Shown here: positions 11,925 through 29,684 of the stretch, in pieces
Layout of the letters: each line of letters begins with the position of its first letter
Numbering within the stretch: the first letter of the stretch is position 1
Source of the DNA: Chamaesiphon minutus PCC 6605
Lineage (GTDB): Bacteria; Cyanobacteriota; Cyanobacteriia; Cyanobacteriales; Chamaesiphonaceae
Length of the DNA stretch: 64,000 nucleotides
Direction: 5' to 3'
Assembly: GCF_000317145.1 (NCBI RefSeq)
Contig: NC_020053.1
Location: forward strand, 62,001 to 126,000
Made by a program: the position numbers and the translations under genes
Notes under the pieces: generated by a model
Databases searched by the model: none
Told to the model about the DNA's origin: nothing
Seen by the model: the letters and a program-made list of their open reading frames with translations, nothing else

Positions 11925-14900
11925 ATGCTCGGAAATATCGTTCAGTGGGTAATTAACCGTCGTTGGCTGGTCGTAATCGCCACTGTTATCGTCTCATTGT
12001 GGACGGTTTATGTCATTCCCCAGATGCCGCTGGATGTGTTGCCAGCTTTTGCGCCGCCGCAAGTGGAAATCCAAACCGAAGCCCCCGGACTCGCACCAGA
12101 GGAAGTAGAATCGCTAGTAACATTACCGATCGAAAGTGCGATTAATGGTACGCCTGGAGTCACAGCCGTGCGTTCGTCGAGTGCGGCGGGAATTTCAGTA
12201 GTGCGGACGGTCTTTGGTTGGTCAACTGACATTTATCAGGCACGTCAACTGATTACCGAGCGACTGCAACAAGCTGTCAGTAAGCTACCGCCAGGAGTCG
12301 AACCGCCCCAAATGTCCCCCACCACTTCTCCCGTCGGGTTGGTGGTGCAGTATGCTTTTACCGTCGCCGATGGCGAGCAGAGTGCTAGTCCAAATTCCTT
12401 AATGGCAGCTCGGCGGATTGTCGATTGGCAAGTGACAAATCGCCTCCTCGCCGTGCCAGGAGTCAGTCAAGTTTTGGTGTTCGGTGGCGACGAGCGACAG
12501 TTTCAAGTACTAGTCGATCCCGTCAAATTAGCAGCTTTTAATATTACTCTAGACCAAGTTGCCCAAGCGACTAGAAAAGCGAATGTCAATGCCGCAGGTG
12601 GTTTTTTTATTACTCCCGATACTGAGAAATTGATTCGGGGGATCGGGAGGATCGAATCGATCGAAGATCTCCAGAAATCGACAATTGTATCCCGCAATGG
12701 CACCCCTGTTAGATTGCAAGATGTCGCTGATGTCCAAATTGGTGCGGCATTAAAACGGGGCGATGGTAGTTTTAACGGTAAGCCAGCAATTATCGTGATG
12801 GTGAATAAGCAACCCAGCTTTGATACGCCGACTGTCAGCCGTGCGGTGGAAAAAGCGGTCGCCGAAATTAAAGTTGGCTTGCCCAAAGATATTCAAGTTA
12901 AGACCACTTTTCGTCAAGATAGTTATATCGAATCTTCCGTCGATAATGTGCGTTCTTCGTTGATCCAAGGTAGTATTATTGCTGCAATTATCTTGATTCC
13001 ATTTCTGTTGAATTGGCGAATTCTAACGGTGTGTTTATTAGACTTTTTCTTGACATTACTATTTGGGATGTTAGTCCTGTCATGGTTGGGAGTTGGTTTG
13101 AATACCATGACATTAGGCGGCTTGGCGGTAGCAATTGGCACGGCGATCGATGATGCGATCGTCTATGGTGAAAATACTTATCGTCGCTTGCGTGAAAATA
13201 AAGCTGAAGGCGATCCACTCACCCCGCTGGAAATCATTTTTGAAGGTTCTCAAGAAGTGCGCGATTCACTCTTAGGTGCGACGATTATTGGAATTATTGT
13301 CTTCTCACCAATCTTTACATTACCAGGGATTGAAGGGAAGATTTTCACCCCAATGGGGATTGCTTACTTAGCAGTAGTTGTCGTTTCTAGTTTAGAATCT
13401 CTACTTGTTTCTCCAGCTTTGTGTGCGATTTTACTGCCTGCTACTAAGGTATCACAGCGAGAACCGTGGCTGGCGAGATTTTGCAAGGCAATTTATAACG
13501 CGTGTTTGAATTTCTCGATGAAAAATCCCCTGTTAATCATGGGAACTGCTACGGTTTTAACCGTCGCATCAATGATAGTTATTCCCTCTTTTGGCAGAGC
13601 ATTTTTACCAGAGTTTCAGGAGCAAACGATGGTAAATACACTATTGTCCTACCCAACTGTTTCCCTCGAAGTTAGCACCAAAGCGGGTCATGTCGTCGAA
13701 GAGTCATTGAAAAATGATAAGCGGTTTACATTCATTCAAACTCGTGCCGGACGCGCCGCTGGTGACTCTGATGCCGCAGGTGTGAATCTGGCTCACGTTG
13801 ATGTCGAAATCAGTAAACTAGGGATGGAAGATCGGCAAGAATCGCTCAAAGTAATGCGCCAAGCATTCGAGAAAATTCCAGGTGCAGCCGCAAATATCGG
13901 CGGTTTTTTACAACATCGGATGGATGAAGTTTTGTCGGGGGTGCGAAGTTCGATCGCGGTAAAAATTTTCGGTTCTGACTTAGCCGAGTTACGGAAAATT
14001 GGGCAAGAAGTAGAAAAACAAATGGCAACAGTCAATGGTGTTGTCGATTTACAACTCGAACCCCAAATTCCAGTACCGCAGATTCAAATTAAATTCGATC
14101 GTGATGCAGCTAGTCGTTACGGGCATACAGTGGGAGATTTATCTGAGACGATTGAAACTGCCCTCAATGGTAGGGTCGTTTCTAAAGTGCTCGAAAATCA
14201 ACAATCTTTCGATTTAGTTGTCTGGTTGAAACCCGAAGCACGGCAGAGTCTAGAAACCATTCGCAATCTCTTAATCGATACTCCCAACAATCAAAAAATC
14301 CCGTTAGCTAGTATCGCCAAGATCGAGCAAGGGAAGGGGCCAAATACTATCAATCGGGAAAATGTTTCGCGCTTAATCGTCGTATCAGCTAATGCCAAAG
14401 GTCGCGATATTCGCTCGCTCGTTTCTGAGATCGAAGCTAAAGTTAAAAGCAACGTCCAATTGCCGACGGGATATTTTATTCAATATGCAGGTCAGTTTGA
14501 AGCTGAAGAACGTGCCACTAAAAACATTTTAGTTTTTGGCGCGATCGCGTTTGTGGCAATTACTGTCTTGATGTATCTTTCCGTTAAATCTATCCCGTCA
14601 ACGCTAATGATTATGATTAACTTACCAATTGCTTTGGTAGGCGGGGTCATTGCGGTGGCTCTGACGGGTGGCGTAATTTCGATCGCGTCTCTAGTGGGAT
14701 TTGTATCCTTGTTTGGGGTGGCAACTCGGAACGGGTTATTACTAGTAGATAACTACAATACTAAATATGCCGAAGGAATGCCCATGAAGGAAATCATTGT
14801 TAAAGGTTCGATGGAGCGACTAAATGCCATCTTGATGACGGCTTTAACTTCAGGCTTAGGTTTAGCACCGATGGTATTTCAAGGCGGATCGGGACAGGAA

Positions 14901-15059
14901 TTATTACAACCTTTATCGATCGTTGTATTTGGTGGTTTATTTACTTCTACTGCGATTACGTTATTGGTATTACCCGCTCTATATGCCAAGTTTGGGAAGC
15001 ATTTATTTCCGAAAAAAGTGGAAGAACCCAAGGTAGAACAATTTTTCATGCACATATAA
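11925..15059 (+). CDS. Heavy-metal RND efflux pump 1 (CusA/CzcA family)
   Basis: 1044 residues, the usual RND size. N-terminal TM1 (VVIATVIVSLWTVYVIP) is followed by PLDVLPAFAPPQVEIQTEAPG and EEVESLVTLPIE, the HME signature. TM4 region near residue 405 has IGTAIDDAIVYGENTYRRLREN, carrying the acidic proton-relay residues. The second half repeats the fold, with GVATRNGLLLVDNYN and ERLNAILMTALTSGLG. Proton-driven export of metal ions through the adaptor and TolC partner. Identity suggests monovalent Cu/Ag or divalent metals; the neighbourhood favours copper. Its paralogue follows at 15364. Confidence 0.88.
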   Translation: MLGNIVQWVINRRWLVVIATVIVSLWTVYVIPQMPLDVLPAFAPPQVEIQTEAPGLAPEEVESLVTLPIESAINGTPGVTAVRSSSAAGISVVRTVFGWSTDIYQARQLITERLQQAVSKLPPGVEPPQMSPTTSPVGLVVQYAFTVADGEQSASPNSLMAARRIVDWQVTNRLLAVPGVSQVLVFGGDERQFQVLVDPVKLAAFNITLDQVAQATRKANVNAAGGFFITPDTEKLIRGIGRIESIEDLQKSTIVSRNGTPVRLQDVADVQIGAALKRGDGSFNGKPAIIVMVNKQPSFDTPTVSRAVEKAVAEIKVGLPKDIQVKTTFRQDSYIESSVDNVRSSLIQGSIIAAIILIPFLLNWRILTVCLLDFFLTLLFGMLVLSWLGVGLNTMTLGGLAVAIGTAIDDAIVYGENTYRRLRENKAEGDPLTPLEIIFEGSQEVRDSLLGATIIGIIVFSPIFTLPGIEGKIFTPMGIAYLAVVVVSSLESLLVSPALCAILLPATKVSQREPWLARFCKAIYNACLNFSMKNPLLIMGTATVLTVASMIVIPSFGRAFLPEFQEQTMVNTLLSYPTVSLEVSTKAGHVVEESLKNDKRFTFIQTRAGRAAGDSDAAGVNLAHVDVEISKLGMEDRQESLKVMRQAFEKIPGAAANIGGFLQHRMDEVLSGVRSSIAVKIFGSDLAELRKIGQEVEKQMATVNGVVDLQLEPQIPVPQIQIKFDRDAASRYGHTVGDLSETIETALNGRVVSKVLENQQSFDLVVWLKPEARQSLETIRNLLIDTPNNQKIPLASIAKIEQGKGPNTINRENVSRLIVVSANAKGRDIRSLVSEIEAKVKSNVQLPTGYFIQYAGQFEAEERATKNILVFGAIAFVAITVLMYLSVKSIPSTLMIMINLPIALVGGVIAVALTGGVISIASLVGFVSLFGVATRNGLLLVDNYNTKYAEGMPMKEIIVKGSMERLNAILMTALTSGLGLAPMVFQGGSGQELLQPLSIVVFGGLFTSTAITLLVLPALYAKFGKHLFPKKVEEPKVEQFFMHI

Positions 15060-15363
15060 ACTATACCAATCCCAACAACAATATTTGTTAGAATAAACTA
15101 GCTTAAATTCAACACTTGTTTAATTCTTAGATCGATCTTTTATCTAGTTTTTATCATCGAGAATTATATCGATTCAGTAGAGACGAAAAAGTTAGCTCGC
15201 TCTTCGGTTCGCCCCGATCCAGCTAGAAGTAGAAATGCAGAACATAACAGCCGACACATTTCCAGGACTAGAGATAGCTACCAACCATCATTACAGTATT
15301 GTTAGCATCACCTTTGCTCTAGAGAAAATTACGAACATTCAAGATCGGTAACAGGTACTCACG
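15060..15363. other. Intergenic stretch between the two RND pump genes
   Basis: 304 bp with no direct-repeat operator, no strong hairpin and no recognised gene. A 38-codon ORF (15235-15351) is present but has no supporting feature. The second pump may therefore be read from the upstream promoter or from a promoter I cannot see. Confidence 0.4.
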
Positions 15364-18300
15364 ATGCTTAATACAATTGTCAAATGGTCGATCGCCCAAC
15401 GGTGGCTGATAGTTATCGCTTCCCTGCTAATTAGCATCTGGGGGTGGCGCGTATTGGGACAAATGCCCCTTGATGTATTTCCTAGCTTTGCACCGCCGCA
15501 AGTAGAAATCCAAGCCGATGCGCCTGGATTAGCACCTGAAGAAGTAGAATCACTGGTAACACGCCCGATCGAAAGTGCCATCAATGGTACTCCAGGATTA
15601 GAATCACTCCGCTCCTCTTCAGCGGTGGGAATTGCTTCAGTCAAAGCTGTATTTAGCTTGTCAACAGATATTTATCGCGCTCGTCAACTCGTCACCGAAC
15701 GGCTCCAGCGGGTGCAAAGTGTTTTACCCAAAGGTGTCGGACAACCAGAGATTTTACCCGTTAGTTCGCCATTGGGTTGGACGGTGAAATATGCCTTTTC
15801 GGGTAACGACATGATGGAAGTCTGGCGGGCGGTGAATTGGGATGTCCGCAACCGCCTGTTAGCCGTACCAGGGGTAAGTAATGTCTTCCTTTATGGTGGC
15901 GATGAGCGTCAGTACCAGGTGCTAATCGATCCAGATAAACTTAAAGCATTTAATGTCTCTGTTGCTGACGTTACCAAGGCTGTCCAGAATTCTAATGCTA
16001 ACGTTCCTGGCGGATTTTTGATTAGTCCCGATCGCGAGATGTTGGTACGCGGGATTGGTAGAATTCAATCGATCGAACAACTCCAAAAATCGGCGATTAA
16101 AGCGATTAATGGCACACCAGTATTACTCGAACAAGTTGCCGATGTCAAAATCGCTCCCGCACTGCGCCGTGGCGACGGATTATTTCGCGGTAAGCGGGCG
16201 TTAATTTTGACCGTCACTAAACAGCCAGTCGCCGATACCCCTACAGTAGTTAAAGCTGTCGAAGCAGCAATGGCAGAGCTAAAAGCAGGACTACCTAAAG
16301 ATATTACCTTTACTAAAACTTTCGACCAAGATCTATTTATTGAAGCCTCGATTAAAAATGTTGAGGAGGCTTTAAGAGATGGGACGATTATTGTTTCAGT
16401 AATCTTAATTATTTTCTTGATGAATTGGCGGACGGTACTGATTAGTCTGAGTGCTTTACCATTATCGCTATTACTCGGATTAATTATTTTAAATTGGACG
16501 GGACAGGGTTTAAATACGATGACGCTGGGTGGTTTGGTAGTCGCGATCGGATCTGTAGTCGATGATGCGATCGTCGATATGGAGAATGTCTACCGTAGGC
16601 TGCGAGAAAATCAGGTCGCGGCGAACCCACTACCACCGCTCCAAGTGGTATTTAATGGCTCGGTAGAAGTTCGAGTCAGCGTATTATTTTCGACAGTAAT
16701 TATTGCCGTAGTATTTGCTCCGATCTTCGTACTATCAGGAGTAGAAGGACGGATCTTTACGCCGATGGGGATGGCTTATTTACTTTCGATTTTGGCATCT
16801 ACATTAGTCGCCTTGACGCTCACCCCCGCTCTTTGTGCTTTACTTCTAGCCAATCGTAGATTACTTAGCTCCGAAACTTTCGTCGAGAAAATGGCACACC
16901 GTTTTTATCGACCATTGCTGCTATTGGCAATGAAATTCCCGAAGATAGTCTTGGGAATATCCCTAGCTGGATTTGTCGCTGCAATGGTCATTCTCCCTGG
17001 ATTGGGGAAGGTATTTTTACCAGAGTTTCAAGATCGATCGCTAGTTAATGCGCTTACTCTCTATCCTGGGCAATCATTGGAATCGACAGACCAAGCGGCT
17101 CTAGCTGTAATGTCGGCGTTCAAAGATGATAAACGCTTTGACACCATGCAGTTTCGAGCGGGTTTCGCTCAAGGTGATGCGGATGTGGCTGGGGTAAATT
17201 CAGGTGAATTAGATGTCCAAATTAGTGAAGAGGGCGACAAAGATCGTGAAAAAACGATCGCTAGTCTCAGATCGGAACTCGACAAATTACCTGGGGTAGC
17301 CACTAATATTGGGGGCTTTATTTCTCACCGGATGGATGAGATCCTATCGGGAGTCAGAAGTGCGATTGCGGTGAAAATTTATGGCCCCGAATTACCACAA
17401 CTTCGCACGATCGGGCAACAAGTGCAAACTGCAATGGGTGGAGTTGCTGGGATTGTCGATCTCCAGTTGGAACCCCAAATTCCAGTCAAACAAGTAGAGA
17501 TTAAATTCGATCGCGCTGCCGCCGCACGGTATGGTTTGAGTATTGGCGACTTAGCCGAAACGATCGAGACTGGACTAAATGGGCGCACTGTTTCTCAAGT
17601 ATTGGAAAAACAACAAACATTTAATCTAGTGGTATGGCTAGATGAGAAATACCGCAATAATTTGGACGTATTAGGTAATTTACTCGTTGATATTCCAGGC
17701 GGTCAAAAAATTCCCTTAGCGCAAGTTGCCAAAGTCGAATATGGTAGCGGCCCCAGTACGATCAATCGGGAAAATGTATCGCGATTGCTGATTGTCTCCG
17801 CCAATGTTTCTGGGCGAGACTTAGGTTCTGTAATTACTGACGTTCGATCGAAAGTCAAAGAGATCGCTCTACCCAGCGGCTATTACATTCAGTTTGGCGG
17901 TCAGTTTCAAGCTCAAGAGCAAGCCACTCAAACCTTGCTTGTAGCTGGAGCATTTTCGCTCATCGCGATCGCAATTCTCATCTATTTTGCTGTCAATTCC
18001 ATTCCCGCCACATTGATGATTATGATTAATCTGCCACTAGCTCTAATTGGTGGTGTAATTGCTGTTGCTAGCAGTGGGGGGATTATCTCGGTTGCTTCGA
18101 TGGTGGGCTTTATTACCTTGTTTGGCGTTGCTACCCGTAACGGATTGCTACTGGTGGATAACTATAATCATCGGTTGGCACAAGGACTACCCCTGAGAGA
18201 TGTAATCGTCGAAGGTTCGATGGAACGGCTGGTGGCAATTTTGCTCACTGCACTAGCTTCAGCCTTGGGAATGGTACCGCTGGTAATCGGTTCTGGTGCG

Positions 18301-18471
18301 GGTAAAGAGATTTTACAGCCTTTGGCGGTAGTGGTATTAGGCGGATTGTTTACTTCCACTGCGCTCACACTCCTAGTCTTACCTGCTCTGTATTCACTAT
18401 TTGGTCGATTTATTGTGAACAAGAGTAGCGAACGGACTCACGAGCTTAGTCCGATTCCAGAACTGGACTGA
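15364..18471 (+). CDS. Heavy-metal RND efflux pump 2 (CusA/CzcA family)
   Basis: 1035 residues, paralogous along its full length to the preceding pump (for example PLDVFPSFAPPQVEIQADAPG and EEVESLVTRPIE). The TM4 motif near residue 400 is IGSVVDDAIVDMENVYRRLREN: the GEN of pump 1 is MEN here and an extra Asp is present, so metal or proton handling may differ. The C-terminal half has GVATRNGLLLVDNYN and ERLVAILLTALASALGMVP. With one adaptor and one TolC in the cluster, the two pumps either share partners as alternative trimers or form a mixed trimer, as MdtB/MdtC do; the latter is only a possibility. Confidence 0.87.
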   Translation: MLNTIVKWSIAQRWLIVIASLLISIWGWRVLGQMPLDVFPSFAPPQVEIQADAPGLAPEEVESLVTRPIESAINGTPGLESLRSSSAVGIASVKAVFSLSTDIYRARQLVTERLQRVQSVLPKGVGQPEILPVSSPLGWTVKYAFSGNDMMEVWRAVNWDVRNRLLAVPGVSNVFLYGGDERQYQVLIDPDKLKAFNVSVADVTKAVQNSNANVPGGFLISPDREMLVRGIGRIQSIEQLQKSAIKAINGTPVLLEQVADVKIAPALRRGDGLFRGKRALILTVTKQPVADTPTVVKAVEAAMAELKAGLPKDITFTKTFDQDLFIEASIKNVEEALRDGTIIVSVILIIFLMNWRTVLISLSALPLSLLLGLIILNWTGQGLNTMTLGGLVVAIGSVVDDAIVDMENVYRRLRENQVAANPLPPLQVVFNGSVEVRVSVLFSTVIIAVVFAPIFVLSGVEGRIFTPMGMAYLLSILASTLVALTLTPALCALLLANRRLLSSETFVEKMAHRFYRPLLLLAMKFPKIVLGISLAGFVAAMVILPGLGKVFLPEFQDRSLVNALTLYPGQSLESTDQAALAVMSAFKDDKRFDTMQFRAGFAQGDADVAGVNSGELDVQISEEGDKDREKTIASLRSELDKLPGVATNIGGFISHRMDEILSGVRSAIAVKIYGPELPQLRTIGQQVQTAMGGVAGIVDLQLEPQIPVKQVEIKFDRAAAARYGLSIGDLAETIETGLNGRTVSQVLEKQQTFNLVVWLDEKYRNNLDVLGNLLVDIPGGQKIPLAQVAKVEYGSGPSTINRENVSRLLIVSANVSGRDLGSVITDVRSKVKEIALPSGYYIQFGGQFQAQEQATQTLLVAGAFSLIAIAILIYFAVNSIPATLMIMINLPLALIGGVIAVASSGGIISVASMVGFITLFGVATRNGLLLVDNYNHRLAQGLPLRDVIVEGSMERLVAILLTALASALGMVPLVIGSGAGKEILQPLAVVVLGGLFTSTALTLLVLPALYSLFGRFIVNKSSERTHELSPIPELD

Positions 18472-19093: not shown

Positions 19094-19621
19094 ATGGGAA
19101 AAATCTGCCAATCTATTAATTATTTAGGTCGATTGACTATCGCCTCTAATAGTTGCGATCGTGCAAACGCCAATGATATTGATCGCCATTCACCGCATGT
19201 AGATGATAAATTCGATGCCAACTCTAGCTGGATAAATGTTTGCTCATCGATTCAGGTACACGTTCCCTGCCATAGTCAAATATTGACAAAATTATGGATT
19301 TATATTCCTGAAAATTTTAAGCCTCAAACTGCCAAAATTGAAATTACCGATTCGGCAGAGCCGACGCTTAGCGAACGAGATTTGACAAATCAGATTTTAC
19401 GCACACGAACGATTGCTGCTCTAATTTCTCGTCAAGGTCAGTGGCTGCAAATAAAATTCGAGCGGTCGATCGCTCCCGACACAAAGTTGTCGATCGCCTT
19501 TAATAGTATCAGCCGAAATATGCTAGTAAGACTGCCGGAATATTTTGTGTATGGCAAATCTGTAAATGGGCAAAGCAGTTTTATAGGTAGAGGCTATTTC
19601 GAGCGAACGGAGCGATTTTAG
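19094..19621 (+). CDS. DUF2808-like protein, copy 1, altered signal region
   Basis: 175 residues. The core (IQVHVPCHSQ...LWIYIPENF...IEITD, then RQGQWLQIKFERSIAPDTKLSIAF and VYGKSVNGQSSFIGRGYF) matches the DUF2808 pattern of cyanobacterial envelope proteins. Compared with its paralogue at 19963, the N-terminus lacks a convincing signal peptide (MGKICQSINYLGRLTIASNS), and about 15 extra residues (AEPTLSERDLTNQILRT) are inserted mid-protein by a dispersed repeat at 19350-19381. It also lacks the direct-repeat operator. I suspect a decaying duplicate. Confidence 0.65.
   Translation: MGKICQSINYLGRLTIASNSCDRANANDIDRHSPHVDDKFDANSSWINVCSSIQVHVPCHSQILTKLWIYIPENFKPQTAKIEITDSAEPTLSERDLTNQILRTRTIAALISRQGQWLQIKFERSIAPDTKLSIAFNSISRNMLVRLPEYFVYGKSVNGQSSFIGRGYFERTERF
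19350..19381. repeat. Small dispersed repeat inside DUF2808 copy 1
   Basis: ATTCGGCAGAGCCGACGCTT followed by AGCGAACGAGAT. The paralogue at 19963 lacks it, so it is visible as an insertion by direct comparison of the two proteins. Confidence 0.6.
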
Positions 19622-19897
19622 TATCCAGCAAAATATCAAGACATAAGTTATCTAAGAATTTTTGATGTGAAATATGTGAATGACTTCACTATCTCTTTTG
19701 TTAAATTTAGTTCGATCGACGGAATTAGTTGTTTGCAGGTATTAAAAATAATGATAAAAGTTAAGGAAATTAAGTGCAATTATTTCTGTTGTTACACATT
19801 AAAAGCTGAGATCTGTTACTATCCATCATCTTAATTTATATATGTTCAGATTTTACAGATCCTAGAAAATAGATCGAATAGTAGCTAGATTTCTTCA

Positions 19898-19914
19898 TTT
19901 CATCTGGATTTCAT
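19898..19914 (+). promoter_or_regulatory. OmpR-type direct repeat TTTCAT-N5-TTTCAT before DUF2808 copy 2
   Basis: Perfect TTTCATCTGGATTTCAT, 48 bp upstream of the start. The rest of the 341 bp gap from 19622 is AT-rich with nothing else I recognise. Confidence 0.7.
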
Positions 19915-19962
19915 CTTAGCTATTTATATTTGATATATAGAGAGATAAGAGAGTCTAAAGCA

Positions 19963-20439
19963 ATGAAAAAAATCTGGCTATTTATCGCTACTTGGGGTTT
20001 AGTAACTACAGCAGTTAATATTGGCAGCTATGCAAGTGCTAATGGTGACGACAGTACTTCACCCCATGTAGATAGTAAATTTGAGTTTCCTAATACTAGG
20101 TGGGCGACTGTCCGCCAGACTATTCAAGTCCATGTGCCCCCAAGCAGTCAAGCATTAACACTGTTATGGATTGATATTCCTAGAAATTTCGAGCTTCAAA
20201 CTATCAAAATTGAAATTACAGATGGAAATAGACTAATCCCAGCCCCAATTTCCCGTCAAGGTCGGTGGCTGCTAATCAATTTCAGTCAACCGATCTCACC
20301 TAATACTAAATTACGGATTGATTTTAATGGTGTAAACCGTAATATGCTGCTCCAATCGTCTGTCTATTCTGTTTATGGCAAGACTATAGATGGGCTAACC
20401 AATTTTATTGGCACAGCGTACTTTCCTCAAGCAGATTAA
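19963..20439 (+). CDS. DUF2808 secreted protein, copy 2
   Basis: 158 residues from ATG 19963 (upstream in-frame codons to 19930 are untranslated leader). Signal peptide 1-27 (MKKIWLFIATWGLVTTAVNIGSYASA). The mature domain reads IQVHVPPSSQALTLLWIDIPRNF, IKIEITD, APISRQGRWLLINFSQPISPNTKLRIDF and VYGKTIDGLTNFIGTAYF, the DUF2808 fold, predicted beta-rich and in the cell envelope. Function in the family is not established. Its operator places it in the copper regulon, and the lipoprotein at 20575 may be co-transcribed. Confidence 0.75.
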   Translation: MKKIWLFIATWGLVTTAVNIGSYASANGDDSTSPHVDSKFEFPNTRWATVRQTIQVHVPPSSQALTLLWIDIPRNFELQTIKIEITDGNRLIPAPISRQGRWLLINFSQPISPNTKLRIDFNGVNRNMLLQSSVYSVYGKTIDGLTNFIGTAYFPQAD

Positions 20440-20574
20440 TTTTGTATTCTAAAGCTAGATATGCAGATACCACTATCTATATATTACATATATGATAAAG
20501 CTGCGGATAGGTCAATCGATTTTATTGCTGAAGTATATTTATCCGAGCAAAATATTTAATTAGGAGTGTGAAAC

Positions 20575-21084
20575 ATGAAACCATTAACTTCAGGAATTAT
20601 TGTGTTAGCTAGTTCTGGACTATTATTACTTGGAGCCTGTAGCAAAGAGGCAAAAAATAGTGATTCGGCGAATCCAAATGCTACTACACCTTCAGCCGAA
20701 ACAGCATCTCCAGTAACAACTACACCTCCAGCTACAACCACAGCTAAAACCCAAAGTAGTGAGGGTGGGAAGAGTAATGGTGGACAAGTAGTAGAATCGG
20801 GGAAATATCACTTAGAGTTCGTTCCAGAGAAGGGAACTAGTGAAACTCACTTAGATTTATACCTTCAAAAAGGTGACAATCATGAAGCTGTTGCTAATGC
20901 AAAAGTCACGGCTGATGTCCAGTTACCAGATGGTAAACTGAAAACTGTTCCACTTAGTTATGATGCCAGTGGTAAACATTATGCAGCAGTATTAAAAGAG
21001 AAAGTCACTGGTCAATATCAAGTCAAAATTACTGCAACGATTGGTAGTGAGAAAGCTGACGGTCGCTTCAATTTCGTTCGATAA
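20575..21084 (+). CDS. Envelope lipoprotein with FixH/YtkA-like domain
   Basis: 169 residues. Signal II peptide with lipobox LLGAC (Cys ~22), then a Thr/Ser/Pro-rich linker (residues ~30-65) and a beta-sandwich domain: SGKYHLEFVPEKG, HLDLYLQKGDNHEAVANAKVTADVQLPDG, YQVKITATIG and GRFNFVR. This arrangement resembles YtkA/FixH-like domains often found next to copper genes. A good ribosome site (TTAGGAGTG) precedes ATG 20575. The 135 bp gap from the DUF2808 gene contains no operator of either type, so co-transcription is likely. Confidence 0.65.
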   Translation: MKPLTSGIIVLASSGLLLLGACSKEAKNSDSANPNATTPSAETASPVTTTPPATTTAKTQSSEGGKSNGGQVVESGKYHLEFVPEKGTSETHLDLYLQKGDNHEAVANAKVTADVQLPDGKLKTVPLSYDASGKHYAAVLKEKVTGQYQVKITATIGSEKADGRFNFVR

Positions 21085-21138: not shown

Positions 21139-21300
21139 TTACTGGCGAGGTGCAACTTTAGGCATACTACAACCACTGCCACAATCGCAACCACTGGCAC
21201 ATTTACCACAACCACAGTCAGCAGCAAAAGCAGCTCCAGCAGTCACAACGGCAATAGCTACAGCAGTTACTGTTGCTTTTAAAATATTTTTAGCGGTCAT
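21139..21300 (-). CDS. Tiny secreted Cys-rich protein (metallothionein-like)
   Basis: 53 residues from ATG 21300. Signal peptide of ~26 residues ending AGAAFAA. The mature peptide is DCGCGKCASGCDCGSGCSM plus a short tail, with six Cys in CxC and CxxxC spacing plus a Met. This would bind several Cu(I) or similar ions outside the cytoplasm. It is divergent from the MerR gene and carries a MerR-type promoter on its own strand. No named family recognised. Confidence 0.75.
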   Translation of the reverse strand: MTAKNILKATVTAVAIAVVTAGAAFAADCGCGKCASGCDCGSGCSMPKVAPRQ

Positions 21301-21328
21301 AATTTCTATTATCCTTGAGTACCCCCCA

Positions 21329-21360
21329 ATCATAAACCCTCTAGTTGGCTTGAGAGTCAA
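21329..21360 (-). promoter_or_regulatory. MerR-type promoter of the tiny Cys-rich gene
   Basis: Minus strand: TTGACT (21360-21355), a 20 bp spacer with the dyad ACTCT...AGAGGGT, and TATGAT (21334-21329). The over-long spacer with a central dyad is the hallmark of MerR-family activation. It lies between the target and the merR gene, so it may also control merR. Confidence 0.75.
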
Positions 21361-21392
21361 GCAAGATAGGCAAACTATATGCGGTAGAACCA

Positions 21393-21821
21393 ATGCTGAA
21401 AATTGGCGATCTCAAAGAGCGAACGGGAGTGAAAGTTAGTACCCTACGTTACTACGAGAGTTTAGGCTTACTACAACCAGCACTTAGGAGTGATAGCGGC
21501 TATCGCTACTTCCATGACAATGCCGTGCAACGAGTATTGTTCATCAAGAAAGCTCAAACTCTCAATTTTTCTTTAACTGAGATTCAAGAAATTTTCAATT
21601 CTCACAATCGAGGTACAGCCGTCTGCTCGATTGTCAAAGATTTAATCGATCGAAAAATTAGTCATTTAGACATCGAGATTCAAAAGCTGCTCGAATCCAA
21701 ACAAAGATTGGAAAGTCACCGCGAACGATGGTCTACCTATCCTGAAGATCTTCCTAATAGTGAAAGTGTCTGCACTCTAATTGAAGAATTGATATCGCTA
21801 GAAGCTAGTACTGTCAATTAA
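21393..21821 (+). CDS. MerR-family metal-responsive regulator
   Basis: 142 residues. Winged helix at 1-70 (MLKIGDLKERTGVKVSTLRYYESLGLLQP, SGYRYF), dimerisation helix, then metal-type Cys residues: GTAVCSIVKDLIDRKI (Cys ~78) and SVCTLIEE near the C-terminus. Cys near 78 and near the C-terminus occur in several metal-sensing MerR proteins. It is divergent from a tiny Cys-rich gene. Four promoters of MerR geometry within 3 kb (21329, 22151, 22868, 23884) are its probable targets. Cu(I) is the most likely signal by context. Confidence 0.85.
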   Translation: MLKIGDLKERTGVKVSTLRYYESLGLLQPALRSDSGYRYFHDNAVQRVLFIKKAQTLNFSLTEIQEIFNSHNRGTAVCSIVKDLIDRKISHLDIEIQKLLESKQRLESHRERWSTYPEDLPNSESVCTLIEELISLEASTVN

Positions 21822-21870
21822 TTCTGTAGATAAAATATCAATTTCGAGCGTTCGTCTTCATTTTTCTGCC

Positions 21871-21928
21871 AACGATCTTAGTCTTTTAATGAAAGTATTT
21901 TCACTCTCATTAAAAGACTAAGATCGTT
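21871..21928. terminator. Strong bidirectional terminator
   Basis: A perfect 22 bp stem (21871-21892 with 21907-21928) with a 14-base loop, AT-rich on both flanks. It separates the convergent merR gene and the small gene at 21931. Confidence 0.85.
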
Positions 21929-21930
21929 AT

Positions 21931-22110
21931 TTATTTACCTCGGATATAACCTGGTGAATAAGATGAAGATGGCGTGCTAACTGGTGACTGCATTTTCTTA
22001 CAACAACCACCGCAACTGCGCTCTTGAGCAGAAGCCGCCCCAGTTGTTATTAATCCTAATGTGGCTAATGCCAAGATCGATCCGATCGCTAGTTTAATTT
22101 GTTTCGACAT
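21931..22110 (-). CDS. Tiny secreted protein with CGGCC metal motif
   Basis: 59 residues from ATG 22110. Signal peptide 1-28 (MSKQIKLAIGSILALATLGL...ASA). The mature part has ERSCGGCCKKMQ (three Cys plus Met), then a Ser/Pro-rich tail ending YSPGYIRGK. A MerR-type promoter with a consensus TATAAT lies 41 bp upstream. Together with the 21139 gene this makes two different secreted Cys-rich mini-proteins in the same probable MerR regulon. No known family. Confidence 0.7.
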   Translation of the reverse strand: MSKQIKLAIGSILALATLGLITTGAASAQERSCGGCCKKMQSPVSTPSSSYSPGYIRGK

Positions 22111-22150: not shown

Positions 22151-22182
22151 ATTATAAAGTTTCTACTGGACTGTAGAGTCAA
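22151..22182 (-). promoter_or_regulatory. MerR-type promoter before the CGGCC mini-protein
   Basis: Minus strand TTGACT (22182-22177), 20 bp spacer with the core CTACAGTCCAGTAG, and TATAAT (22156-22151). Same geometry as at 21329. Confidence 0.75.
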
Positions 22183-22481: not shown

Positions 22482-22832
22482 ATGACTACTACTCAATCTC
22501 GTAACTCTCAACTCGAAGCTTGTATTGAAGCCTGCCTAAAATGTCTCCAAGACTGTGAATTTTGCACCACTGCCTGTCTGGATAGTGACATGGTGCAGAT
22601 GATGGCTGCTTGCATCAAAGCCTGCCGCGATTGCGCCGATCTTTGCGCTCTTTGTGCCCGGTTTATGAGTCGCACTTCCGACCTACACGCTCAATTATGC
22701 GCGGTTTGTGCCGATGCTTGCGATCGCTGTGCTGCTGAATGTGCCAAGCACGACCACGAACATTGTCGTCGCTGTGCTGAGTCTTGTCGTCGCTGTGCCG
22801 AATCTTGCCGTCAAATGTCGATGGCACATTAG
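22482..22832 (+). CDS. Four-helix copper storage protein, Csp family (DUF326)
   Basis: 116 residues, no signal peptide, so cytosolic (Csp3-like). It contains 21 Cys, mostly in CxxxC and CxxC spacing along four helices (EACIEACLKCLQDCEFC, AACIKACRDCADLCALC, QLCAVCADACDRCAAEC, HCRRCAESCRRCAESC), the pattern that lines the Csp tube and binds many Cu(I). A clear ribosome site (AAGGAG) precedes the ATG. Its upstream operator is of the OmpR type, while the next gene has the MerR type. Confidence 0.9.
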   Translation: MTTTQSRNSQLEACIEACLKCLQDCEFCTTACLDSDMVQMMAACIKACRDCADLCALCARFMSRTSDLHAQLCAVCADACDRCAAECAKHDHEHCRRCAESCRRCAESCRQMSMAH

Positions 22833-22867: not shown

Positions 22868-22899
22868 TTGACCCTCTAGTTAGCTAGAGGGTCAAGAAT
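22868..22899 (+). promoter_or_regulatory. MerR-type promoter before the second DUF305 gene
   Basis: TTGACC, 20 bp spacer, then AAGAAT. The dyad TTGACCCTCTAG/CTAGAGGGTCAA is a perfect 12 bp inverted repeat around TTAG. It also could end transcripts of the upstream gene, but lacks a T-tract. Confidence 0.7.
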
Positions 22900-23063
22900 A
22901 GAAAGTAACTAAACCCAAAAGAGCACGATTATCGTTTTGTAATACCCAAGGCTAAGCTCTGCCAAAGAATTCCCATCGGCTCGCAAGAAATTTGCCCATC
23001 GCTATCCAACTAAAATATCTAAAAAATTATGACCGAGCGTAATAACCAAGATCGAGCATTCGT

Positions 23064-23093
23064 CGTTGGCAACGCCTCTTCCGTGGAGAATCA
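23064..23093. repeat. Small dispersed repeat upstream of the DUF305 lipoprotein start
   Basis: CGTTGGCAACGCCTCTTCCG then TGGAGAATCA. It lies between the MerR-type promoter and the preferred start codon, in the leader of this gene. Confidence 0.55.
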
Positions 23094-23100
23094 TAGAAAA

Positions 23101-23862
23101 ATGGCAAATCCAGCAACATTTCCACCAAAAATATGGGTAGGATTTGCGATCGCTGCCATCTTTTTGAGCAGCGGATTGGCGGCATGTTCCAATCGCACAG
23201 CGCAATCGCCATCAACAACAGATACTACGACCACGACCACGACTAGTCCAGCCGTAAGTTCAGCTCCCAGCTCATCGCCATCAACAACAGCGACTACACC
23301 CACGACCGATCCTTCTGTCAGTTCATCTCCAAACTCATCGAGTCAAACTATCTCCGATCGAGATTTTCTGACCATGATGACTGCCCATCACAAGCAAGCA
23401 CTTGAAATGGCGGATTTAGCCCTAACCCGTGCCAAGCGTCCTGAAATCAAACAACTAGCTCGATCGATTATCAAAGACCAAAAGAGCGAGATTCAAACAA
23501 TGGCAGCCCTTTATAAGACATCCTATGGCACAGAAATTCCCGCGATGGCAATGGGTGGTGGAATGATGGGCAAGGATGGCAATTCGATGAATGGCATGAA
23601 TGGCATGAATGGCATGAATGGCATGAAAATGGATATGAATGCTCTCAAAAATGCCGCTGATTTCGATAAAGAATTTTTGCAGCAGATGAGTGTCCATCAC
23701 CGGACAGCAACCGAGATGAGTCAGATGGTGTTACGGACGACCAAATCGCCAGAAATTCAGACATTAGCTCGGTCGATTATTAAGGCTCAAACTGCCGAGA
23801 TCGCTCAGATGCAAAAATGGTACCAAAGTTGGTATAAATCCAACCTACCAAATAACACTTAA
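23101..23862 (+). CDS. DUF305 lipoprotein, CopM-like, second copy
   Basis: 253 residues from ATG 23101; an in-frame ATG at 23029 adds 24 residues drawn partly from a dispersed repeat (23064-23093) and would spoil the signal peptide. The signal ends in lipobox GLAAC. A Ser/Thr linker follows, then two DUF305 repeats (FLTMMTAHHKQALEMADLAL and FLQQMSVHHRTATEMSQMVL), separated by a Met-rich segment with four NGM repeats encoded by a 9 bp tandem repeat at ~23590-23626. Membrane-anchored periplasmic copper binding is expected. Unlike the first DUF305 gene it has a MerR-type promoter. Confidence 0.85.
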   Translation: MANPATFPPKIWVGFAIAAIFLSSGLAACSNRTAQSPSTTDTTTTTTTSPAVSSAPSSSPSTTATTPTTDPSVSSSPNSSSQTISDRDFLTMMTAHHKQALEMADLALTRAKRPEIKQLARSIIKDQKSEIQTMAALYKTSYGTEIPAMAMGGGMMGKDGNSMNGMNGMNGMNGMKMDMNALKNAADFDKEFLQQMSVHHRTATEMSQMVLRTTKSPEIQTLARSIIKAQTAEIAQMQKWYQSWYKSNLPNNT

Positions 23863-23883: not shown

Positions 23884-23915
23884 TTGACTCTCTAGCGGAC
23901 TAGAGAGTTGAGAAT
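23884..23915 (+). promoter_or_regulatory. MerR-type promoter before the copper chaperone gene
   Basis: TTGACT, 20 bp spacer, GAGAAT. The dyad ACTCTCTAG-CGGA-CTAGAGAGT is perfect. Confidence 0.7.
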
Positions 23916-23961
23916 AAGCATAAGTACATCTAAAACGCGCTCATCAAACTACCAACGAACA

Positions 23962-24179
23962 ATGACTATCCAACTAAACATTCCTAACATGGCTTGCTCT
24001 GCCTGTAGTGAAACGATCTCCAAGGCAGTAATAGCGATTACCTAACGGTAGGCTACGCCAACGATCCGACAGCAACCGTGCAAGCCGATCCCAAAACCAA
24101 GCAAGTCAAGATTGAGACTCAAGCCTCTCAATCAGCGATCGAGAGTGCTATTACAGCGGCTGGCTACCAAGTAAATTAG
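23962..24179 (+). pseudogene. CopZ/Atx1-like copper chaperone broken by a ~23 bp repeat
   Basis: ATG 23962 opens MTIQLNIPNMACSACSETISKAVIAIT and stops at TAA 24043. From 24063 a different frame continues DPTATVQADPKTKQVKIET and ends AAGYQVN at 24179. The two halves together are a complete HMA-domain chaperone with the MxCxxC copper site. About 23 bases (24040-24062, including GGTAGGCTACGCCAAC) are inserted at the join, shifting the frame and adding the stop. The inserted bases match the dispersed-repeat family of this window. The first 27 residues still carry the copper site but not the fold. Confidence 0.8.
24040..24062. repeat. Small dispersed repeat that disrupts the chaperone gene
   Basis: The bases ACCTAACGGTAGGCTACGCC and the following AAC separate the two halves of the HMA domain. 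Length 23 is not a multiple of three, which explains the frameshift. Confidence 0.65.
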
Positions 24180-24336
24180 CATAAATTAGAGTTCCAAACG
24201 GAGAAATCTCCCTGATTGATACCTTGACTTTGCATAAACGATCGCCAGTTTGCTAAATTACCCAAAATTCATCGATCGATTGTGTCAGTAATGGTACTGA
24301 CATTGCCGATTATCAAAGCTAATTGGAGCTATATAT

Positions 24337-25065: not shown

Positions 25066-26808
25066 ATGAATAAGAACGAGCTGCCCCCTACAGGCAGTCA
25101 TCAATACCCCCTCACTCGTCGCAGTTTCATTCGAGGGGGTGGCATTGCCAGCGGACTGATCCTTAGCAGTGGCATTCACAGTCTACTATCGAGTTGTTCG
25201 TCTCCATCTTCTACCACGAAACTACCTGAGAATAATACTGTAGCCCGCACTCCGAATCCGAAATTTACTCCCGATCTAGAAATTAACCTCAAGGCTGCAC
25301 CGAAAACGGTGCAAATCCTCGCTGGACAACCAACCCAAGTTTGGTCTTATGCAGCAGAGCTAGTCAAAGGCGACCCAAACAGCTTACAAGCTGTTCCCGA
25401 TAGTTATTTAGGCCCGATTATTCGCGTTCGGCAAGGTCAGCGCGTCCGAGTCAACTTCCAAAATAACCTACCCCAAGGGCAAAGTAGTATCGTGCATTGG
25501 CATGGCTTAATTTTGCCAGAAGACATGGACGGACATCCTCGTTTTGCAATTCAACCTGGACAAACCTATGTATATGAGTTTGAGGTTGTTAATCGGGCGG
25601 GGATGAACTGGTTTCATCCGCATCCAGATATGCTGACAGGGCAACAAGCTTATGCTGGCTTAGCGGGGCTGTTTATCGTCACAGATCCAGAAGAAGCCGC
25701 TCTCAAACTACCAGCAGGTGCTTATGAAGTGCCGATCGTCCTGCAAGATCGTACCTTAGATGCCAGTAACCAACTCCTTTATTTGGGCAGCAAAATCGGT
25801 ACACCTCGTAACGATGGCATGGAGGGAATGGGCGGCATGGGTAGCATGTCACAGGGCAACTCAAATCAGTCTGGTGGCAGCATGGGTAACATGAGCAGCA
25901 TGATGGGCTTTTTAGGTGAAAAGATTTTTATCAATGGCAAGCCCGACTTTACCCTGGCTGCGGCAACGCGAGTCTACCGCCTCCGCATCCTCAATGGTTC
26001 TAACGCCCGCATCTACAAGCTGGCATGGAGTAATGGCGATCCCTTGACCCTTATCGGCACTGATGGGAGCTTGCTGAGTCAACCTGTCACTCGCAAGTAT
26101 GTGATGCTGGCTCCAGGCGAGCGGCTCGATGTTTGGGCAGACTTTAGCAAGCTGAAAGTTGGAACGCAATTAGCTCTCAATAGTCTGGCTTTCTCTGGAG
26201 CCGAGAATGTCGGTGGGAATAGTATGGGCGGGATGAGTTCTGGTAATGCCCCAGAACTTGGTGCGGCGATGACCCTATTTAACGTCAAGATCGCGCGGAC
26301 GGAAACAGAAACTTTGCAGCTTCCCAACAAACTAGCCGCTCTACCCTTATTGCGTCCAGAAGATGCTACTAATGCTGCCCAACCTCGCCCCGTTGAGCTT
26401 TCGCTCCAAGGGATGAAATGGGTGATGAACGGGCAACCCTTTGAAATGACTACCGCCACACCGCAGGAAACTGTCAAGTTAAATTCGATCGAGCAGTGGG
26501 AGATTATCAACAAACTCAATCCTGGCGCGATGATGGATGCCAAGGGGATGGCGCATCCCATTCATCTACACGGCGTGCAGTTTCAAGTCATCAGTCGCCA
26601 AGTTTTGCCAGAACTTGCCGCCGGATGGCAAACAGTTAAGGATGGCTATGTGGATGAAGGCTTCAAGGACACTGTAATGGTGATGCCAGGTGAGCGAGTC
26701 AAATTGCTAATGAAATTTGATAAATACAGCGGCTTATTTACCTACCATTGCCATAACTTAGAACATGAAGATGCTGGGATGATGCGGAATTATCGAGTCA
26801 ATGCCTGA
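25066..26808 (+). CDS. Multicopper oxidase, CueO/CopA-like
   Basis: 580 residues. Tat signal with RRSFIRGGG at 19-27, followed by LLSSC, so possibly a Tat lipoprotein. Copper ligands are all visible: HWHG (~146), WFHPHPD (~187), HPIHLHGVQF (~500) and YHCHNLEHEDAGMM (~560), covering the trinuclear centre and type 1 site with axial Met. Two Met-rich insertions (GMEGMGGMGSMSQG; GNSMGGMSSGN) are typical of cuprous oxidases. It oxidises Cu(I) in the periplasm to the less harmful Cu(II). It begins a likely operon with the DUF1269, copA and cupredoxin genes. Confidence 0.92.
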   Translation: MNKNELPPTGSHQYPLTRRSFIRGGGIASGLILSSGIHSLLSSCSSPSSTTKLPENNTVARTPNPKFTPDLEINLKAAPKTVQILAGQPTQVWSYAAELVKGDPNSLQAVPDSYLGPIIRVRQGQRVRVNFQNNLPQGQSSIVHWHGLILPEDMDGHPRFAIQPGQTYVYEFEVVNRAGMNWFHPHPDMLTGQQAYAGLAGLFIVTDPEEAALKLPAGAYEVPIVLQDRTLDASNQLLYLGSKIGTPRNDGMEGMGGMGSMSQGNSNQSGGSMGNMSSMMGFLGEKIFINGKPDFTLAAATRVYRLRILNGSNARIYKLAWSNGDPLTLIGTDGSLLSQPVTRKYVMLAPGERLDVWADFSKLKVGTQLALNSLAFSGAENVGGNSMGGMSSGNAPELGAAMTLFNVKIARTETETLQLPNKLAALPLLRPEDATNAAQPRPVELSLQGMKWVMNGQPFEMTTATPQETVKLNSIEQWEIINKLNPGAMMDAKGMAHPIHLHGVQFQVISRQVLPELAAGWQTVKDGYVDEGFKDTVMVMPGERVKLLMKFDKYSGLFTYHCHNLEHEDAGMMRNYRVNA

Positions 26809-27352: not shown

Positions 27353-27419
27353 CAAAAAAATAGATAATTTTACAGATTGATAACGCGCTTGGATCGATCG
27401 AATAACTGAGTTGAAATAT

Positions 27420-29684
27420 ATGGAAGATCTAAATCTAAAACTCAAGGGGATGAGTTGTGCCTCCTGTGCCAACAGTATCGAGAAAGCAATCCTGAATGTG
27501 CCAGGGGTAGTAGAAGGTAACGTCAATTTTAGTATCGATCGAGCCAGCGTTCGCTACGATCCCAAGCAGACTAATATTAACATCATCACTAAAGCAGTTG
27601 TTGATATTGGGTATGAGGCGCAAATTATCCCCGCAGATCTCAGCAGTGAAGACGACCTCGGAAATAGTCAACAACAACTAGAAGAGCGAAATCTTCAGCG
27701 CAGAGTTCTAGTCGGGGCAATTCTCAGTGTACTGCTGGTCATCGGCAGTTTGAGCCATTTTAATCTCACACTTCCATCCTTCTTAGTTAAACTGGAAAAT
27801 CCCTGGGTACAGCTAGTACTAGCATCACCCGTACAGTTTTGGGTAGGTAGGGAATTCCAAATATCGGCATGGAAGGCATTTCGCCACCGTACCGCTGATA
27901 TGAATACCCTGATTGCGCTCGGCACGAGTATCGCCTTTTTCTATTCACTCTGGGTAACGATCGATCCTCGTTACTTCACAACACAAGGATTATCCGCAGA
28001 AGTCTACTATGAAGCGACGGCGATGATTATCACCTTGACGCTGTTGGGAAGATGGTTGGAAAATCGTGCCAAAGGAGCCACGTCGTCAGCGATTCAGGCA
28101 TTGATGGGGTTACAGGCAAAAACTGCACGGGTGGTGCGGGATGGTAGAGAACTTGACATTCCGATCGCGGAAGTTGCTCTTACAGATATTGTCGTAGTAC
28201 GTCCTGGTGAGAAAATTCCTGTCGATGGTGAAGTTGTATCGGGATATTCCACTGTGGATGAGTCGATGCTCACTGGCGAAAGTTTTCCAGTAACTAAACA
28301 AGTCGGCGATGAAGTTGTCGGTGCAACTCTCAATAAAATGGGTAGCTTTCAGTTTCGGGCGACTAAAATCGGCAAAGATACCGCCCTAGCTCAGATTGTC
28401 AAATTAGTCCAACAAGCGCAAAATTCTAAAGCCCCAATCCAAAAACTAGCCGATAACATTACTAGCTGGTTCGTTCCGGTAATTCTGGCGATCGCTGTGA
28501 CAACTTTCGTAGTCTGGTTTCTAACGATCGGCAATTTTACTCTATCGATCGTCACAATGGTCGGTGTATTAATTATCGCTTGTCCCTGCGCTTTGGGTTT
28601 AGCAACGCCCACCTCAGTTACCGTCGGTATTGGCAAGGGAGCAGAAAATGGCATTCTGATTAAAGCTGCCGAAAGTCTCGAACTCGCTCGTCAAATCCAG
28701 ACGATCGTGTTGGATAAAACGGGTACCATTACTCAGGGTAAGCCTGTTGTCACCGATACTTCTTCCATGCTAGATCTCGTTCCTACTAGTGCGAATATTC
28801 TAGCTCCACTGGCTTTATGGCGATCGATCGGTGCTTTAGAAAGTAACTCCGAACATCCCCTGGCTGAAGCCTTACTTCAATACGCCCGCGAGCAAAATAA
28901 AGACTTACAATTACCAACTGTCGGTCGATTTGAAGCGATTGCGGGAAGTGGTGTCAAAGGTATTGTCGAACAGCAACAAGTTCTGATTGGTACCCAACGC
29001 TGGTTCGATGAAATGAACATCAATTCAGCCGTATTCCAAACACAGAAAGACGGGTGGGAGGATGCCGGAAAAACTGTGGTATTCGCTGCTGTTAATGGTC
29101 ATTTACAAGCCGCGATCGCTGTTGCTGATACTGTTAAACCCAACTCTGCTAAGGCGATTCAAACCCTACAAAAAATGGGGATCGAGGTCGTGATGTTAAC
29201 TGGTGATAATCAACGCACCGCCAAAGCAATCGCCGATCGAGTCGGGATTACCAGAATCTTAGCCGAAGTTCGCCCCGACCAAAAAGCCCAGACGATTCGG
29301 ACTTTGCAAGTAAAAGAGAAAAAGGTTGTGGCAATGGTTGGAGATGGTATTAATGATGCCCCCGCACTCGCTCAGGCTGATGTTGGGATGGCGATCGGCA
29401 CGGGTACGGATGTCGCGATCGCGGCAAGTGACATCACGCTGATTTCGGGGGACTTACAGGGGATTGTGACGGCAATTCGGCTCAGTCGCGCCACGATGCA
29501 AAATATCCAGCAGAATCTATTCTGGGCACTAGGCTATAACGTACTAGGCATCCCGATCGCGGCGGGGATTCTGTTCCCGATTACGGGCTGGTTGCTCAAT
29601 CCAGCGATCGCGGGTGCGGCGATGGCATTTAGCTCGATTTCAGTCGTCCTCAATGCTTTGAGATTAAAAGGAGTAAAAATATGA
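27420..29684 (+). CDS. copA: Cu(I)-exporting P1B-type ATPase
   Basis: 754 residues from ATG 27420 (an in-frame TTG at 27411 is less likely). One HMA domain with GMSCASC at about 11-17, TM helices, actuator loop [12 protein letters not shown], metal-site [15 protein letters not shown], phosphorylation DKTGTIT, HP motif SEHPLAEA, hinge [16 protein letters not shown]. The last helices carry YNVLGIP and [15 protein letters not shown], the residues typical of Cu(I) P1B-1 pumps. Exports cytosolic Cu(I). It overlaps the cupredoxin gene by 4 bp (ATGA), so the two are translationally coupled. Confidence 0.93.

Follow-up and report, generated by a model that had tools for sequence, protein, structure and literature searches.

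The bacterial metallothioneins SmtA/BmtA and MymT are cytosolic proteins. Metallothioneins are described as rare in bacteria, and MymT, which is needed for copper resistance, as at first an unannotated small ORF (PMC7558416). Csp1 and Csp3 (DUF326) are described as storing Cu(I) on cysteine residues (PMC7558416), and CopM of Synechocystis as periplasmic and extracellular (PMC4284471), with CopM, CusF and PcoE under the control of two-component systems (PMC4284471, PMC7558416). Work on copper resistance in cyanobacteria has centred on CopMRS/CopBAC of Synechocystis (PMC4284471). Searches of titles and abstract openings in the open literature gave no description of exported peptides such as those reported here; subscription journals lie mostly outside that scope, so this absence is not proof.

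Here we describe two mini-proteins of 53 and 59 residues encoded beside a merR gene in a 64-kb stretch of DNA (the window; G000:C3:62001-126000) from a 6.76-Mb genome of three contigs. Like SmtA/BmtA and MymT, they are very small and rich in cysteine; unlike them, they carry signal peptides (judged by eye), have mature parts of about 27–31 residues and lie behind a MerR promoter. The merR gene (21393-21821, +) is divergent from the 53-residue gene and convergent with the 59-residue gene, and all three sit between two RND-type efflux genes (11925-18471; labelled by eye) and a copper-type ATPase (27411-29684). The features are as follows.

21139-21300 (−): gene for the 53-residue secreted Cys-rich mini-protein; mature part of about 27 residues with six cysteines, predicted from the sequence
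21329-21360 (−): MerR-type promoter/operator of the 53-residue gene, TTGACT-20 bp-TATGAT (21360 down to 21329) with an inner dyad, in the merR intergenic region
21393-21821 (+): merR, 142 residues, from Pfam/NCBIfam profiles and alignment with relatives
21870-21929 (no strand): terminator-like 28-bp hairpin (z −12.2) between the convergent merR and 59-residue genes
21931-22110 (−): gene for the 59-residue secreted peptide; mature part of about 31 residues containing SCGGCCKKM, with three cysteines, predicted from the sequence
22151-22182 (−): MerR-type promoter/operator of the 59-residue gene, TTGACT-20 bp-TATAAT (22182 down to 22151) with an inner dyad
22482-22832 (+): Csp-like four-helix copper storage protein (DUF326), from Pfam/NCBIfam profiles
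22868-22899 (+): palindromic site of the same kind as the peptide operators, before the DUF305 gene; poorer −10, missed by the one-mismatch operator pattern
23029-23862 (+): CopM-like DUF305 protein, from Pfam/NCBIfam profiles
23884-23915 (+): operator of the same kind before a broken CopZ-like frame, from the operator pattern
25066-26808 (+): multicopper oxidase-like gene, from an NCBIfam profile
27411-29684 (+): copper-type P-type ATPase (CopA-like), from an NCBIfam profile

The CopZ-like frame (23960-24180) is broken by a frameshift; its copies at L026 and L027 are open, and those at L025 and in G005 (L062) look broken. At 19094-21084 lie tandem DUF2808-like secreted proteins (weak matches, below the cut-off) and a 169-residue lipoprotein-like gene, which recur beside other islands.

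An earlier note on this DNA had proposed two secreted Cys-rich mini-proteins, each behind a MerR-type promoter, and at the level of sequence these points are borne out. Both ORFs are present, with signal-like N-termini by eye, and each is preceded by a promoter with a 20-bp spacer and a dyad, placing the two in one regulon. The 53-residue protein reads MTAKNILKATVTAVAIAVVTAGAAFA followed by ADCGCGKCASGCDCGSGCSMPKVAPRQ, and the 59-residue protein MSKQIKLAIGSILALATLGLITTGAASA followed by QERSCGGCCKKMQSPVSTPSSSYSPGYIRGK. A longer in-frame TTG start of the 53-residue gene is also present; we chose the ATG because in the other copies the upstream frame is shifted relative to the gene. We placed signal peptides and cleavage sites by eye, supplemented by a crude ORF filter (40–70 residues, ATG start, signal-like N terminus, at least three mature cysteines). 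This filter, written after the two peptides had been seen, returned exactly these two from the 64-kb window and nothing from 100 dinucleotide-block shuffles of it. Searching Pfam at E 1 gave no match for the 53-residue protein and one unrelated match below the cut-off for the other, and NCBIfam gave none for either; a metallothionein profile was matched in neither database. A profile comparison of the two families gave a probability of 57%, with the alignment mainly covering the signal-peptide ends; it neither supports nor contradicts the earlier note's description of the two as unrelated.

The merR/peptide module, whole or damaged, occurs in four islands of the same genome (C3:83k, C3:381k, C1:2003k and C1:1741-1746k) and in a congener, G003. 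In the island at C1:1741-1746k, merR is more distant and the 53-residue gene is 5′-truncated. Four islands of this type in one genome could be a gene-dosage adaptation. The 53-residue gene is found in four complete copies, three in its own genome and one in G003, all of which keep CGCGKCASGCDCGxGC with its six cysteines unchanged. Across the six pairs of complete copies, the whole-gene pN/pS (NG86) was 0.12–0.47, from few substitutions; restricted to the mature part, the comparison has too few changes to give a clear signal, and nonsynonymous changes exceed synonymous ones in some pairs. Two further copies (L025 5549-5668 and L029 near 6459) are truncated, lacking the 5′ part in one and the 3′ part in the other, a pattern as for a dispensable gene.

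The family appears, from these searches, to be confined to the genus. Matches were found in 2 of 60 relatives' genomes, including its own, and at E 0.05 in 7 of 291 genomes of the order, where those in G000 and G003 are real. We rejected the other five: two are one kind of frame that lacks an ATG and overlaps other genes, one lies within a 119-residue protein of another kind and two have internal stops. Viral contigs contained no match to the 53-residue protein. Genome contigs contained none either, which is weak evidence, as only two signal-peptide stretches served as patterns. Neither mini-protein was found in plasmids.

Relatives of the 59-residue gene were found in 3 of 60 genomes, its own included. 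The Cys motif of this gene is intact in four full-length genes (the window gene and its orthologues L027, L028 and L025). In a further copy, L026, one cysteine is replaced by serine and the end has been replaced beside a transposase-like ORF (labelled by eye). In the congener G002, promoter, signal and C-terminal end are kept, the motif is gone and one cysteine is left. A paralogue in the own genome, behind a promoter of the same kind, has GGCACCKKMGSMSMPMPMPMPNKK, with CACC where the window motif is CGGCC. The Cys pattern is kept in all complete copies of the 53-residue gene; the motif of the 59-residue protein is less well conserved and not universal. At 13 merR loci outside the genus, a rough screen for adjacent secreted ORFs carrying at least three cysteines turned up nothing convincing, so the divergent merR–peptide pair is not general.

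To characterize the regulon, we searched for the operator found upstream of both peptides (a TTGACYCT dyad with a 20-bp spacer). The exact pattern occurs at seven sites in the own genome, all inside the four islands, and in 5 of 386 genomes of the phylum (own included); the reversed control gave 0 in both searches. With one mismatch and a slightly altered pattern, 58 of the 195 Cyanobacteriales genomes scanned contained it, own and congeners included (reversed control, 0). We read 83 distinct sites, a list that omits the own-genome sites and a congener copy (L060), and assigned to each the longest ORF whose start lay no more than 320 bases from the operator; because the longest ORF was taken, some sites show CopA behind a first gene, CopZ. 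Three sites had no ORF of 40 residues; in two of these, L062 and L069, a broken CopZ-like frame can be made out by eye. The ORFs picked at L098, L100 and L121 look spurious, and at some sites no gene is convincing. L061, where the picked ORF was the second gene, was omitted from the Pfam scan (80 reduced to 79). In overlapping classes, the 79 downstream proteins included 27 with HMA, 24 with E1-E2 ATPase (for the most part the proteins that also have HMA), 14 with DUF411, 12 with MerR, 8 with glutaredoxin and 6 with DUF305 domains, as well as 1 multicopper oxidase and 1 DUF326 protein. Most of what follows the operator is copper genes (CopA/HMA, DUF411 and DUF305) or merR itself, which makes this, by gene content, very probably a copper regulon. 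This sharpens the earlier note, which placed the peptides in a MerR regulon. The island neighbours of the window peptides and the genes that share their type of promoter are likewise copper genes.

The MerR encoded in the window matches the NCBIfam models for CadR-PbrR, ZntR, MerR and CueR, all below their cut-offs (77 bits for CueR against a cut-off of 147.4), with CadR-PbrR and ZntR scoring best. Among PDB entries it matches 4ua1 and CadR better than CueR, and its C78 aligns with a cysteine of CadR. These similarities would fit a regulon that answers zinc, cadmium or lead, in which case the peptides would be divalent-metal metallothioneins. We consider this unlikely, as the genes downstream of the operator across the order are largely copper genes and Csp, CopM-like, multicopper oxidase and CopA-like genes lie within the island itself. 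At E 1e-30, 14 of 148 genomes of the order, the own genome among them, encode MerR relatives, and in an alignment of 19 cyanobacterial proteins (the window MerR and 18 relatives) only two cysteines, C78 and C127, are invariant. We take this arrangement to be unlike the CueR loop; it possibly forms a different Cu(I) site. The aligned proteins probably represent a copper-sensing MerR clade in which no other cysteine is invariant.

Other Cys- and Met-containing peptides, predicted to be exported, lie behind the same promoter. In G487, merR and the gene for a 44-residue secreted peptide ending in DTCNCC diverge from a single palindromic operator that serves both. Secreted proteins of 107 and 111 residues behind the operator contain GCSCCKNMM and GCPCCQSMM, respectively, and have Met-rich tails. 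A 108-residue secreted Met-rich protein with a single cysteine (L090 575-901, −) also lies behind an operator of this kind. Relatives of the 111-residue protein occur in 11 of 291 genomes of the order, including its source, and none was found in the own genome at E 0.001. A genome-wide scan for this C-x-C-C-[KQ]-x-M family yielded 26 loci, 25 in records titled as cyanobacteria and one in a MAG titled Tatlockia; some of these are the same genomes as among the 11. The motif is present in all 25 readable members. Among the 25 loci with upstream DNA (all but L167), 24 have the operator with at most three mismatches, the exception being L186; the distance from operator to start is 47–54 bp in 23 of them and 133 bp in the remaining locus. 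Single control windows taken downstream gave 9 to 11 mismatches; of 1,040 windows of 265 bases drawn at random from these loci, true sites included in the draw, 44 matched with at most three. An alignment of 24 rows (L165, with a broken frame, and the partial L167 and L186 left out, L086 added) has five invariant columns, three of which are cysteines, and the median pN/pS was 0.4 (128 of 276 pairs used).

A MerR gene is present at 19 of the 26 C-x-C-C loci. In Tolypothrix sp. PCC 7712, the peptide gene is accompanied by DUF305, four-helix copper protein, heavy-metal ATPase and cupredoxin genes and two regulator genes, and in Nostoc sp. C052 by RND efflux genes, with arsenic genes beyond. Six plasmid records carry the gene, annotated as 'hypothetical protein'; all six were typed as conjugative, which makes it a testable resistance trait. 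At seven Nostoc-group loci (L168, L170, L171, L174, L177, L181 and L185), a co-directional gene of the F510_1955 kind, without an operator of its own, follows the peptide gene after 262–268 nt, a gap that could hold regulatory structure. Profile comparison by hhalign does not join the C-x-C-C and 59-residue families (probability 3%, nine columns), so their likeness in motif may be convergent.

The arrangement of merR and mini-protein genes is real and conserved, and makes better sense within a copper regulon that includes putatively exported Cys/Met peptides than as a pair of unconnected curiosities. We propose, with a probability of roughly two in three, that both mini-proteins belong to a copper-responsive MerR regulon and, once exported, bind Cu(I) through their thiolates. 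The genes, promoters, regulon content and conserved cysteines are observed; the steps that follow are predicted. Under this proposal, Cu(I) in the cytoplasm would load MerR, probably on C78 and C127, and Cu(I)-MerR would activate the promoters with 20-bp spacers. These would switch on the peptides, CopZ and CopM/DUF305, and CopA in other cyanobacteria. The Sec pathway would carry the peptides into the periplasm or the thylakoid lumen, where they would buffer Cu(I) at their cysteines (and methionines) and might pass it on to CopM, to the multicopper oxidase or to the efflux system. Against this proposal stand the single cysteine of the 59-residue relative in G002, the truncated 53-residue copies, the lack of a profile link between the 59-residue and C-x-C-C families and the negative screen at 13 merR loci outside the genus. 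The 'metallothionein-like' label of the earlier note is an inference.

Another explanation is that these are disulphide-rich secreted peptides with a different role (envelope, antimicrobial or signal) that merely share the promoter. Cysteines in the periplasm often form disulphides, so that in an oxidising setting the thiols may do so instead of binding Cu(I), and Pfam and NCBIfam assign the peptides no function. Their placement in copper islands behind a copper-type operator, repeated for several peptide sequences, makes this explanation quite improbable.

We also considered whether the peptides are nascent-chain copper sensors, exported leaders whose translation controls a downstream gene. 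They are small, with a Sec-type signal, a Cys motif and a place in a copper island, as described for CutF (PMC9973294) and CruR (PMC9426467), and the seven Nostoc-group C-x-C-C loci have a co-directional gene with no second operator in the gap. The window peptides, however, have no co-directional downstream gene, as both face convergent genes, one of them across the 28-bp hairpin. Neither has PP in its last 15 residues, nor does any of the 25 C-x-C-C members read, and DUF2946 was not matched at E 1. We rejected a CutF-type leader for the window peptides because they lack a co-directional target and a C-terminal PP, and regard a sensor role as very unlikely; the case against it is weaker for the Nostoc-group members. 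That both mini-proteins are chance ORFs, as their shortness and lack of family matches might suggest, is scarcely credible given that frame, start, promoter and cysteines are conserved in paralogues and a congener and that the shuffled copies gave none.

Returning to Cu(I)-thiolate peptides, a wider generalization, about as likely as not, would be that cyanobacteria have extracytoplasmic mini-metallothioneins: several exported families (CGCGKCASGCDCGxGC; C-G-x-C-C-K-K-M; C-x-C-C-[KQ]-x-M with a Met-rich tail; and CNCC) separately recruited to one copper MerR promoter as an extracytoplasmic copper buffer, one of them also on conjugative plasmids. If so, cyanobacterial copper handling would gain a further layer, a class of exported copper peptides behind a single recognisable promoter. 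The combination of operator, signal peptide and C-x-C-C offers a sequence handle for finding small unnamed genes.

The window locus shares elements with several described systems. CutF and CruR (DUF2946) are also small Cys-motif proteins of copper loci, and CutF is Sec-exported; the window peptides differ in having no PP motif, co-directional downstream gene or DUF2946 match. CopM (DUF305), CusF and PcoE are exported copper binders of copper resistance loci, whereas the window peptides lie behind MerR-type promoters and match no profile. The regulator resembles CueR, ZntR and CadR in belonging to the MerR family and acting, by prediction, at a long-spacer dyad promoter, but its clade has only two invariant cysteines and it falls below the cut-off of every listed NCBIfam subfamily. 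Csp1 and Csp3 are four-helix bundles, for which the window peptides, without a DUF326 match, are too short; both kinds are Cys-based, and a Csp-like protein is encoded next to the window peptides (22482-22832).
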